Positions 13,739 to 39,798 of a stretch of DNA of 64,000 nt are shown here, piece after piece. The DNA comes from Arthrobacter echini. GTDB lineage: Bacteria; Actinomycetota; Actinomycetes; Actinomycetales; Micrococcaceae. The notes beneath the pieces were generated by a model that saw nothing but the letters and a program-made list of their open reading frames with translations, did no database searches and was not told the origin of the DNA. Each line of letters opens with the position of its first letter. The stretch's first letter is position 1. The position numbers and the translations under genes were made by a program. The stretch is taken from positions 124,001 through 188,000 of the forward strand of contig NZ_VSLD01000005.1 in NCBI RefSeq assembly GCF_008107445.1, written 5' to 3'.

Positions 13739-13760
13739 ATCCCGGGCACCATACCGGGAT
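13739..13760. terminator. Hairpin between convergent recR and ABC permease
   Basis: 7-bp inverted repeat ATCCCGG/CCGGGAT with an 8-nt loop. Its right arm abuts the second stop codon of the permease reading frame, consistent with that frame once having extended to here. Confidence 0.5.
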
Positions 13761-13921
13761 CAGGCGATCCGCGTCCCCTTCGCCAGCTGCCGTGCGGGCA
13801 TGGTCAGCCTCCGGCGCCCGAGGAGCAGAAGGACCCCCGCGAGCGCTACCTGGATGCCCAGACCGAGAGGCCAGATGGGGACCTCCTGGGGCAAGGGCCG
13901 CAGTGCCGCGGCGGCTTCCTC
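13760..13921 (-). other. Orphaned in-frame C-terminal tail of the ABC permease
   Basis: Directly after the TGA at 13922-13924 the same reading frame stays open for 53 codons to a second TGA at 13760-13762. It encodes an acidic/Ala stretch, a hydrophobic segment of about 20 residues (PIWPLGLGIQVALAGVLLLL) and a basic end RRRLTMPARQLAKGTRIA. This is what the C terminus of this permease family looks like (last transmembrane helix plus a basic cytosolic tail ending GTRIA or similar). It is either lost through a nonsense mutation, reached by UGA readthrough, or separated by a sequencing error. Confidence 0.75.
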
Positions 13922-14899
13922 TCAGGTGACGTCCAGATCCGGCCCGGCCTGCGCAGCACGCACCAGCTGGCTCGCCATCTCCATGACACCGGGCGCGTAG
14001 TAGTCCCCCGCGTACGCATAGGGGTCGGGTACGGCGTCCGCCGGTGGTTCATCAGGGAGACCGTAGGGCACCGCATCAGCCACCACCACGAAGGGGTTGG
14101 CCGCAAGAAGCCAGGCTACGTACTCCGTATGGGCCACCGGGGTCGTGTAGGTCTGGGTGATGCACTCGAGTTCGGCGTCCTCGTCGAACCTCCCGTCGTC
14201 CCGGTAGGCGGAGTCGGGGTAGTCGTAGTAGGACGTCGTCGTCATCCTGTCCTCCGTCACCAGCGCGCTGCTCAGGCCGAAGACGATCAGCGTCCCGATG
14301 CTGAGCAGCGCCACCACCATGTAGGTGCTGACGATCGAGAACAGGGGTCGGTCGGCGAGCGCAGAGATCCCGACGCCGATGGCGCAGAGAATGCCGAGCT
14401 CGACGGCGAGCATGAGCAGGGAGACCAGTGCTTCGGACGCGTCGACGCCGCCGAGAGCCAGGGCCCAGAAGATGAAGGGACTGCTCAGTACGAGGAAGGC
14501 GAGCGACCCGACCCAGGATGCCAACCACTTGCCCAGGAGCAACTGCCCGGGGCTCAGCAGTGTCACCTGCAGGATGGCAAGGGTCCCTCCGGCGCGGTCG
14601 CCGTTGACCGCGTTGGCGGAGAGCCCGGGCGCCACGAGCAGTCCGAAGAAGAGGACGAAGCCGACCACGAGATCGAAGAGGATGCCGCCCTCGTTGTCCA
14701 TGGTTCCGAGGAAGGCGGTCCCGAGGACGAAGATGAGGCCGATCACCACGAACCAGACGCCGAGCATCCAGTACCAGGCCCTACCGCGCAGGCGCTGCTT
14801 CATCTCGAGCGAGAAGACTGTGCGGACGGCCGTCCAGGCGGGAAGGCTCGTGGAAGTACGGACCGGCTGCGGGGTCGAAGGCTCGGTCACCGTGCTCAT
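13922..14899 (-). CDS. ABC-2-type transporter permease, prematurely stopped
   Basis: A 325-residue membrane protein starting at ATG 14899, which overlaps the ATPase stop by 4 nt (ATGA). It has an N-terminal cytosolic segment, then helices at roughly residues 45-65, 85-105, 125-145, 150-170, 180-200 and 215-235, and a large acidic external loop with Tyr/Asp-rich sequence and one Cys (about 240-280). A short hydrophobic stretch LLAANPFVVVADA follows, with an acidic tail. The normal last helix lies beyond the TGA at 13922. Together with the upstream ATPase it would form an exporter of unknown substrate. Whether the truncated form works is uncertain. Confidence 0.75.
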   Translation of the reverse strand: MSTVTEPSTPQPVRTSTSLPAWTAVRTVFSLEMKQRLRGRAWYWMLGVWFVVIGLIFVLGTAFLGTMDNEGGILFDLVVGFVLFFGLLVAPGLSANAVNGDRAGGTLAILQVTLLSPGQLLLGKWLASWVGSLAFLVLSSPFIFWALALGGVDASEALVSLLMLAVELGILCAIGVGISALADRPLFSIVSTYMVVALLSIGTLIVFGLSSALVTEDRMTTTSYYDYPDSAYRDDGRFDEDAELECITQTYTTPVAHTEYVAWLLAANPFVVVADAVPYGLPDEPPADAVPDPYAYAGDYYAPGVMEMASQLVRAAQAGPDLDVT

Positions 14900-15828
14900 C
14901 GTCTGTCCGTGTCGAGGCTCATGTAGGTCTCCTCCAGTGCGCCGCCCGCGGGCGCGAAAGCGGTGATGACCACGTCGCCGAGCACGAGGGTCCGCAGCAA
15001 CCACGACGCCTCTGCGGTACTGCCGAGCTGGATGAGGAACTCCTCGCGCCGTGAGTCCCCGCGCGTCTCGAAGCGCACCCCGTAGCTCTGCAGCGCCGTC
15101 GCGAGCTCCGACATCGGCTCCGCCCGTACGTAGTAGCGCCTCGTCTGGCTGCCGGCCTCGTCGAGGGTCTGGCTCTTCACCGATCGGCCTCGGCTCACGA
15201 ACACGGCCCGGTCGGCGATCTCGTCGAGCTCGGACAGGACATGACTGGACACGACGACGGTCTTGCCGGCCGCTGCCAGCGACCGCAGGAGGGAGCGCAG
15301 CTCCACACGGGACCCCGGGTCCAGGCCCGACGCCGGTTCGTCCAGTAGCAGGACCTCCGGATCGTGGATGAGCGCCCGCGCCAGGCTGAGACGCTGCTGC
15401 TGGCCCCTCGAGAGAACACGCGCCGGCTGCTTCGCGTACTCCGTGAGGTTCACCGTGCCGAGCAGATCCTCGGCACGGGAGGAACGGTCCGCTTCACCCA
15501 GCCCGTAGAGGGCACCCATGGTCTTCAACACCTCCGACGCTGTGAGGGAATCCCAGACACCAAGGGTGTCCGGCATCCAGCCCATGCGCCTGCGGACCTC
15601 GCCCGGTTGGGCGACCGGGTCGAAACCTGCCACCCGGACGGTCCCTTTGTCGGGGGCCAGGAGGCTTGCCAGGATCAGCAGCAGCGTGGTCTTGCCGGAA
15701 CCGTTCGGGCCGATCAGGGCCGTTACTTCTCCGGGCGGGGCCTTGAAATCGACGTCGTTGACGGCCTGCACCGAGCCGAAGCTCCGGGCGACACCCTCGA
15801 CGACGATTCCCCCATTCTCGTCGGTCAT
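14896..15828 (-). CDS. ABC transporter ATP-binding protein
   Basis: A 310-residue ATPase of an exporter-type (ABC-2) system. Walker A GPNGSGKT is at about residues 40-47, signature LSRGQQQRLSLARAL near 138, Walker B VLLLDEPASGLDP, and the switch His in VVVSSHVLSELDE. The C-terminal about 90 residues (YYVRAEPMSELATAL...) form the accessory domain seen in multidrug/Na+-efflux-like ATPases. ATG 15828 is chosen: TACCCT ends exactly 6 nt before it on the minus strand, suggesting a leaderless start. It is divergent from lysC and coupled to the downstream permease. Confidence 0.88.
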   Translation of the reverse strand: MTDENGGIVVEGVARSFGSVQAVNDVDFKAPPGEVTALIGPNGSGKTTLLLILASLLAPDKGTVRVAGFDPVAQPGEVRRRMGWMPDTLGVWDSLTASEVLKTMGALYGLGEADRSSRAEDLLGTVNLTEYAKQPARVLSRGQQQRLSLARALIHDPEVLLLDEPASGLDPGSRVELRSLLRSLAAAGKTVVVSSHVLSELDEIADRAVFVSRGRSVKSQTLDEAGSQTRRYYVRAEPMSELATALQSYGVRFETRGDSRREEFLIQLGSTAEASWLLRTLVLGDVVITAFAPAGGALEETYMSLDTDRR

Positions 15829-15940
15829 GGTAAGAGGGTATGCGATAGGGGCGCTCCATGACCCCGGCCGGACGCTTATTTCCTGCGGAAGCGTGCGTAC
15901 ACAATCGGACACCGACTTCCGGTCCGCAATCACGGCGCCC

Positions 15941-17342: not shown

Positions 17343-17475
17343 TCCTCCCCTGACCCGGGCCCTCCCTTTGCCGGCGCCCGGCCCCTACCTTTGTCGGCGC
17401 CCGGCCCTCCCTCAGCACTCCGACACCAGCACCCCTGCTCGACCTACTGCTGCCCCACCACCGTTCGAGCCCCAG

Positions 17476-17978
17476 CAGTGGGAGCGAAGCCCACGCCCGG
17501 CTCGCTCCCACTGCTCATGCGCGAGTAGTGGGAGCGATCGCTTGTTCCCACTGCTTCAACGCCAGTGATGGGATCGACGAGGACACACCGCGCTCAATCC
17601 CACCGTTCAGGAGCCGACACCGGGATCGAAGACCACGCCCGGCTCACTCCCACCGGTCGGGACCCACCAGTGGGAGCGACCGCTTGTTCCCACTGCTTCC
17701 ACGCCATCGCTGGGATCGACGAGGACACACCGCGCCCGATCCCACCGATCAAGCCCCAAAACTGGGATCGAAGACCATGCCCAGCTCACCCCCACCGCTC
17801 GAGAGCCAATACTGGGATCGACCGAACGCACGACACCTGCAGCTGCGAAGGTCCCACCGGTCGGGACCCACCAGTGGGAGCGACCGCTTGTTCCCACTGC
17901 TTCAACGCCAGTGATGGGATCGACGAGGACACACCGCGCTCGAACCCATCCCTTCAACGCCAGTGATGGGGTCGACGC
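17476..17978. repeat. Array of about ten GTGGGA/TCCCAC palindromes
   Basis: This lies in the 826-nt gene-free stretch between convergent lysC and the subtilase gene. It holds successive hairpins built on TGGGA/TCCCA arms. Examples are CAGTGGGAGCGA (17476-17487) with TCGCTCCCACTG (17502-17513), and TGGGATCG (17711-17718) with CGATCCCA (17737-17744). A block containing AGTGGGAGCG, TGTTCCCACTGCTTC and TGGGATCGACGAGGACACAC recurs at about 17527, 17669 and 17873, with a partial copy at 17950. Spacing is irregular and no ORF is conserved through the copies. It looks like a REP/BIME-type intergenic repeat cluster. The flanks (17343-17475 and 17979-18093) show no gene. Confidence 0.85.
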
Positions 17979-18093
17979 CGATAGACGGGCCGGACGGCTC
18001 GGTCGAACCGAGGAGAAATGCCAGCGCCGCGGCCCCACCCGAAGCTCGGCGTCCAGACACCAGTGCCGCGGCCTCGCCCGGACACGGAACGCA

Positions 18094-18128
18094 GGAAGGC
18101 CAATGGATCGATGATCCATCGGCCTTCC
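18094..18128 (-). terminator. Terminator of the subtilase gene
   Basis: Near-perfect inverted repeat GGAAGGCCAATGGATC/GATCCATCGGCCTTCC about 40 nt downstream of the subtilase stop codon. It has a long stem and tiny loop but no T-tract. Confidence 0.7.
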
Positions 18129-18168
18129 CGTGCTGATCACTCAGCTGGTGTCACAGGTTGAGCTGGTG

Positions 18169-38862: not shown

Positions 38863-38913
38863 CCCGGCAGGCACTGTCCGCTCCATGTCCGGGCCGGCCG
38901 TCCCGCCTCCCGG

Positions 38914-39798
38914 TCAGTCCACCGCGTCGGCCAGGCGCGCGAGGGCCACACGGTAGTGCGGCCAGTAGCGGATGCTTCCGGGGAGCACCGGAGCCAGGAC
39001 GCGCACCACGCGGCGCAGGACGGCGAACGCCAACTGCTCCCGACGCCGCCAGGGGAGGGCGTAGGCGTACCGCACCGTCGGCGGGAGGAGACCCGCGGCC
39101 AGGAGCGAGGGCACCCCTCGCAGCGGGCGCATCACCAGGGGCGGGTCCGGCGCGAGGATCTGATCCTCGATGAGGTGCGCCGTCGAACCGACGTCCAGCA
39201 CAGTGCGGATCTGCTCGTGGAGATAGCGCTCCAGGGCGTCGTAGTCCGTGGGGAGAACGTCCTCGGTGACGTCGAACAACCGGGCGAACTGCGTCATGTC
39301 GCGGTAGTAGGCGTCGCGCTCCGCCGGGGTGACCGGTCGGAGGAAGATCTCGGTGACCTCGAGCGCGGTCCACACGAGGGTCGCGAACACCCACAGGGCC
39401 AACTCCGGATCGCGGGCGCTGTAGGCGGTGCCGGCGGGTATCGACGCGCCGTCGTCGGGGAGCGTCCCCCGCACCGGCCGGTGCCTGCGTGCCACCAGAT
39501 CGCCGGCAGCCCCGACCTGGGCATGGTCTCCGAAGGTGACCGTCAGGACGGCGTCGAGCGTTCCGCGCAGGCGCCGCAGCGGGTCGGTGGCGAAGTCGCT
39601 GTGGGCGCGGACTCCTTCGCCGACGAGGGGATGCGCCACCTGGAGCAGGAGTGCAGCCGGCCCCCCGGCGAGAACGGTCCGCTCGCGGGCGATCCTCCAC
39701 GCGGTGGAATCGGGACCGAAGAGCCCGGGGTCCCCAACGGCACCGGCCATCGGGCGCGCAGGAAAGAACCGGTCCAGGCGCCTCGTCCACGCTCGCAT
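38914..39798 (-). CDS. MpaB-type oxygenase domain protein (DUF2236), second copy
   Basis: A 294-residue paralogue of the 7.4-kb gene. The LLLQVAHPLVGEGVRAHSDF segment corresponds to its His signature. Further matches are VTFGDHAQ and DPELALWVFATLVWTALEVTEIF. The two copies share the fold but little else, so they are old paralogues. Haem-binding oxygenase activity is a family inference; substrate unknown. TAGTGT (39810-39805 on the minus strand) lies exactly 6 nt before the ATG, suggesting a leaderless start. It is convergent with the 38260 gene. Confidence 0.75.
   Translation of the reverse strand: MRAWTRRLDRFFPARPMAGAVGDPGLFGPDSTAWRIARERTVLAGGPAALLLQVAHPLVGEGVRAHSDFATDPLRRLRGTLDAVLTVTFGDHAQVGAAGDLVARRHRPVRGTLPDDGASIPAGTAYSARDPELALWVFATLVWTALEVTEIFLRPVTPAERDAYYRDMTQFARLFDVTEDVLPTDYDALERYLHEQIRTVLDVGSTAHLIEDQILAPDPPLVMRPLRGVPSLLAAGLLPPTVRYAYALPWRRREQLAFAVLRRVVRVLAPVLPGSIRYWPHYRVALARLADAVD

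Follow-up and report, generated by a model that had tools for sequence, protein, structure and literature searches.

A TGA at an invariant cysteine codon interrupts an ABC-2 permease gene in Arthrobacter echini, probably through a recent nonsense change

Here we consider a 64,000-nucleotide stretch of the draft genome of Arthrobacter echini (NCBI RefSeq assembly GCF_008107445.1, contig NZ_VSLD01000005.1, positions 124,001 to 188,000; hereafter the window), in which an in-frame TGA breaks the reading frame of an ATP-binding cassette (ABC) permease of the ABC-2 type. The locus is an ordinary interrupted gene. We believe, with a probability of roughly two in three, that a single-codon nonsense change, seen in no other genome of the comparison, has fallen on an invariant cysteine codon in the permease of an ABC-2 exporter, and that the gene is probably a fresh pseudogene or a strain polymorphism. 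The presence of the stop in the organism, its recent origin, and its inactivating effect are all three conclusions that we infer from the comparisons below.

The permease is encoded on the minus strand at 13922..14899, where it starts with the ATG at 14899 and runs for 325 codons to the internal TGA at 13922..13924. From there the same frame continues, with no shift, through a tail of 53 codons (13763..13921, minus strand), homologous to the C-terminal end of the unbroken permeases in relatives. The tail ends in KGTRIA and is closed by a TGA at the normal C-terminal position of the family (13760..13762, minus strand). A preliminary description of this DNA, made from the single sequence, had placed the stop at 13922-13924 after residue 325 and the end of a 53-codon continuation at 13760, and these coordinates and counts are correct; so is its remark that the tail keeps a high-GC coding style, with GC at the three codon positions of 0.65/0.46/0.88 before the internal stop and 0.81/0.53/0.87 beyond it. 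The 325-residue product already passes the curated cut-off of PF12679 (34.7 bits versus 27.2).

Comparison with relatives carries most of the argument. A search for related loci gave 36 (L002-L037), of which L037, a distant 25% match, was not counted; in all of the remaining 35 the frame is open through the stop position into a homologous tail, as it also is in 29 of 29 further loci from a search of the genus (L039-L067), drawn largely from the same organisms. Thus, the tail is not a chance open frame. None of the 35 shares the internal stop or ends at it, the nearest relative (genome G034), with 96% protein identity over the 325 residues, included. The preliminary description had taken the tail for the real C terminus of the family and had named a recent change and an artefact among its three readings of the stop, and the alignment of relatives for which it called upholds both points. 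The motif GTRIA ends the printed tail at 34 of the 35 loci, that of L022 being broken by a run of N.

Full-length proteins were aligned for 31 of the 35 loci (L002-L034 and L036, minus L013, L015 and L022, with L035 also out); L022 and L035 were left aside for their runs of N, L013 for its nearness to L012, and L015 because its title names another organism. Among the 31, the C-terminal GTRIA is invariant, and so are Cys246 and the cysteine at position 326, where the window has TGA; Cys172 is present in 28. The four loci outside the alignment also have a cysteine codon at the stop site. On this alignment, the lost invariant cysteine is a detail that was invisible to the earlier single-sequence reading. 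The permease of another genome (G017) lies in two pieces and was considered as a second mutation, but was not counted, as an assembly gap of 100 N produces the same pattern in L035. We also note that L015 (WNZI01000008.1), titled Vibrio cholerae strain 35D, has an Arthrobacter permease at 71% identity and looks mislabelled or contaminated.

The structural model of the nearest intact relative suggests what the stop would remove. Its last helix comprises residues 343-364, which map to codons 343-364 of the full frame in the window (13808..13873, minus strand), wholly past the TGA and in agreement with the hydrophobic helix that the preliminary description had predicted in the tail. The window product up to the stop would thus have an incomplete membrane domain. 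The model matches the fold of NosY (from NosDFY) over model residues 23-365; a sequence search against solved structures returned one weak, irrelevant match only (E 0.59). Codon 246, encoding the other invariant cysteine, is retained in the window (14162..14164, minus strand), and in the model Cys246 and Cys326 both lie between helices 5 and 6, where they may form an extracytoplasmic disulphide. The protein resembles ABC-2 permeases of PF12679, whose nearest solved fold is NosY, in its profile match and its adjoining ABC ATPase; it differs in a large loop that contains two invariant cysteines, and the window copy differs further in stopping before the last helix. Its NCBIfam matches (SagH and GldF, and DrrB for the relative) are far below their cut-offs and yield no substrate assignment, and the best NCBIfam match of the ATPase, to DrrA, is likewise below cut-off (218.3 versus 312.45 bits).

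The ATPase is encoded directly upstream of the permease in an intact open reading frame (ORF) on the minus strand (14896..15933; PF00005, 110.8 bits) of 345 amino acids counted from the first GTG, although the true start is probably further inside; the end of the ATPase frame and the start of the permease share the sequence ATGA. A general course of events can be proposed. One nonsense change would have turned a cysteine codon into UGA, and translation would stop there, giving a product that lacks Cys326 and the last helix as well as the conserved terminal GTRIA. Because the last helix and an invariant cysteine would be lost, the truncated permease should not form a working exporter, the exporter should be inactive, and the intact adjoining ATPase would be left without a partner. 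The operon itself looks dispensable in the genus, judging by its genomes, since two of the 38 (G031 and G035) have no permease match and no close ATPase match either. In those two genomes the best ATPase match reaches no more than 37-38% identity, and the operon seems to have been lost as a unit.

In its lone in-frame stop, its intact orthologues, and the lack of other damage, the locus resembles nonsense-type pseudogenes and premature-stop polymorphisms, and its sole difference from ordinary nonsense pseudogenes is the chance location of the stop at an invariant cysteine codon. At the same time, parts of the evidence weigh against a recent, inactivating nonsense change. The tail shows no decay: resolved changes on the window branch are two nonsynonymous and four synonymous in the tail and three and 14 in the body (Fisher p 0.58), counts in which few changes are resolved and 11 (tail) and 32 (body) differences are not, and on these sequences functional readthrough, an error in base calling, and a stop of very recent origin would fit equally. 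Loss at an invariant cysteine is, moreover, mildly suggestive of recoding, a hint tempered by the fact that, of 16 codon positions at which one step would give TGA in the gene of the nearest relative, three are cysteine codons. A literature search found no paper on a premature stop codon in an Arthrobacter ABC transporter permease, which is no proof of absence.

Of the alternatives, a base-call or consensus error, with the gene intact in the organism, is unlikely but deserves real weight, for the genome (3.16 Mb, with completeness given as 100% and contamination as 0.15) is a draft in 42 contigs, and the defect is one isolated substitution without a frameshift or any visible relaxation of selection in the tail. 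However, the assembly shows no sign of being error-rich: when 436 kb of it are set against the nearest relative, one nonsense event is clear and a second is weak, and the reverse comparison, with the relative read against the window genome, gives none. This is a rough figure that covers the 64 kb window plus 372 kb from a second contig rather than the whole genome. These counts come from a codon-usage-aware screen whose thresholds were loosened after a strict version, with zero events, had missed the permease itself; the loosened screen kept the permease and the one weak event from 737 and 136 stops in the window-genome alignments, and nothing from 454 and 67 in the reverse direction. An initial ORF comparison had been swamped by high-GC shadow frames, with 17 of 54 chosen ORFs flagged, the permease among them; on hand inspection four of these (o87, o142, o166 and o210) proved to lie on the opposite strand of better genes or in another frame of them and were rejected as interrupted genes; for the other 12 the inspection covered stop positions or partial coverage. 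The weak second candidate is a TAC to TAG change near position 196586 of contig C26, in an ORF with 78% identity to G034, and may be a shadow frame. In our judgement, the odds are about 3:1 for a real, recent nonsense change as against an error. It is highly doubtful that the truncated protein of 325 residues, lacking the last helix, still functions as a permease. The intact reading frame of the ATPase speaks for it, but 31 of 31 aligned relatives keep the last-helix region and the invariant GTRIA end, and the fold match to NosY covers that region.

The remaining alternatives would have the UGA decoded. Its position opposite a cysteine invariant in 31 of 31 aligned relatives recalls bacterial selenoproteins, a UGA facing a conserved cysteine being one of two criteria in systematic selenoprotein predictions, according to PMC1242214, and two members of the genus (G010 and G029) encode selenocysteine genes, G010 with a UGA in formate dehydrogenase. 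Nonetheless, we regard selenocysteine as extremely improbable, since the likeness to selenoproteins ends there. The window genome has no selenocysteine gene that passes its cut-off and an empty site where those two members carry a selenium island, a hairpin after the stop lacks support, and both selenocysteine-encoding genomes (L040 and L041) have cysteine codons at the permease site. Matches to selA, selB, selD, and tRNA-Sec (the selenocysteine tRNA) exceed the family cut-offs in those same two of the 38 genus genomes. In the window genome, selA has no match at E 0.001, and the best scores for selB (197.8 versus 242.25 bits), tRNA-Sec (43.4 versus 47), and selD (36.3 versus 125) are sub-threshold; such matches to these three occur in all 38 genus genomes and all 14 control genomes, as expected of family relatives. 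The 43.4-bit tRNA-Sec match (C37:80543, L133) is a tRNA-Ser with anticodon TGA, not TCA, by ARAGORN. The RNA past the stop folds no better than shuffles, with a z score of -0.31 for the 60 bases from the stop (-0.34 and -0.28 for shorter and slightly longer windows) against -2.01 at the formate dehydrogenase UGA used as a control, although this test alone is weak, the same site in two relatives without a UGA giving -0.49 and -1.38. Near relatives do carry a selenium island, but a route other than SelA, SelB, and tRNA-Sec by which the UGA were read as cysteine or selenocysteine, giving a full-length permease, is scarcely credible. Readthrough of a leaky UGA by a near-cognate tRNA, giving some full-length permease and hence the two forms that the preliminary description had proposed, is somewhat less far-fetched, though still improbable. 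The tail retains its coding composition at third positions (0.87), and PMC7918605 argues that many bacterial in-frame stops are read through and that TGA is leaky, with 6% in one B. subtilis reporter. The case made there rests, however, on stops shared by orthologues, and its section 2.1 holds that such stops tend to last only on the scale of population polymorphism; here the stop is found in none of 35 relatives. The two-form proposal is also opposed by the want of selenocysteine genes over cut-off, by the poor folding past the stop, by the absence of a TCA anticodon among the 46 tRNA matches in the genome (all 46 read), by an intact release factor 2 gene (prfB), and by the commonness of TGA stops, which close 19 of the 28 conserved window genes with a readable stop, the other nine ending in TAG (31 gene ends were read, and three coordinates that did not fall on a stop codon were dropped). 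With no TCA anticodon and prfB intact, a reassigned UGA or a suppressor tRNA was likewise rejected as not supported. Traces of full-length protein are possible, given low-level leakiness of UGA, and nothing here shows selection for them.

The selenocysteine trait can be followed to one place in the genus. The window has an empty site of 41 bases at 38871..38911, where G010 instead has an island of about 9.9 kb bearing selenocysteine and formate dehydrogenase genes: G010 DNA matches the window up to 38870 and again from 38912, the two edges lying about 9.9 kb apart in G010 (G010:C41:85236-95164, L082), and in G029 (C32, L084) the match breaks at 38870 and resumes at 38954. All four sel matches fall inside the inserted stretch in both genomes. 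The G010 island also holds ORFs that we take to be formate dehydrogenase genes, and one of these ORFs has an in-frame UGA in what is presumably the context of the catalytic selenocysteine. The nearest relative is continuous with the window across this site and so has no island. The island, of some 10 kb, is a presence/absence element at one place, present in two genus members. Across the family the trait is patchy, selA being over cut-off in 70 of 295 sampled genomes, and transfers of the selenocysteine trait into two Arthrobacter strains are among those listed in PMC5029168.

The case matters mainly for annotation, which should record an interrupted gene here instead of a short permease. A stop at an invariant cysteine, in a genus with some selenocysteine-encoding members, would tempt a predictor, and a UGA opposite a conserved cysteine is insufficient for a selenoprotein call; the machinery and the selenocysteine-encoding relatives need checking as well. 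Detection of a full-length product would be relevant to how UGA might be decoded in the absence of known factors.

Elsewhere in the window, a repetitive stretch lies at 17458-18140, between an aspartokinase gene and a subtilisin-like protease gene; it contains short ORFs with recurring motifs such as GATACSHCF, and its alignment with G034 falls into overlapping blocks.
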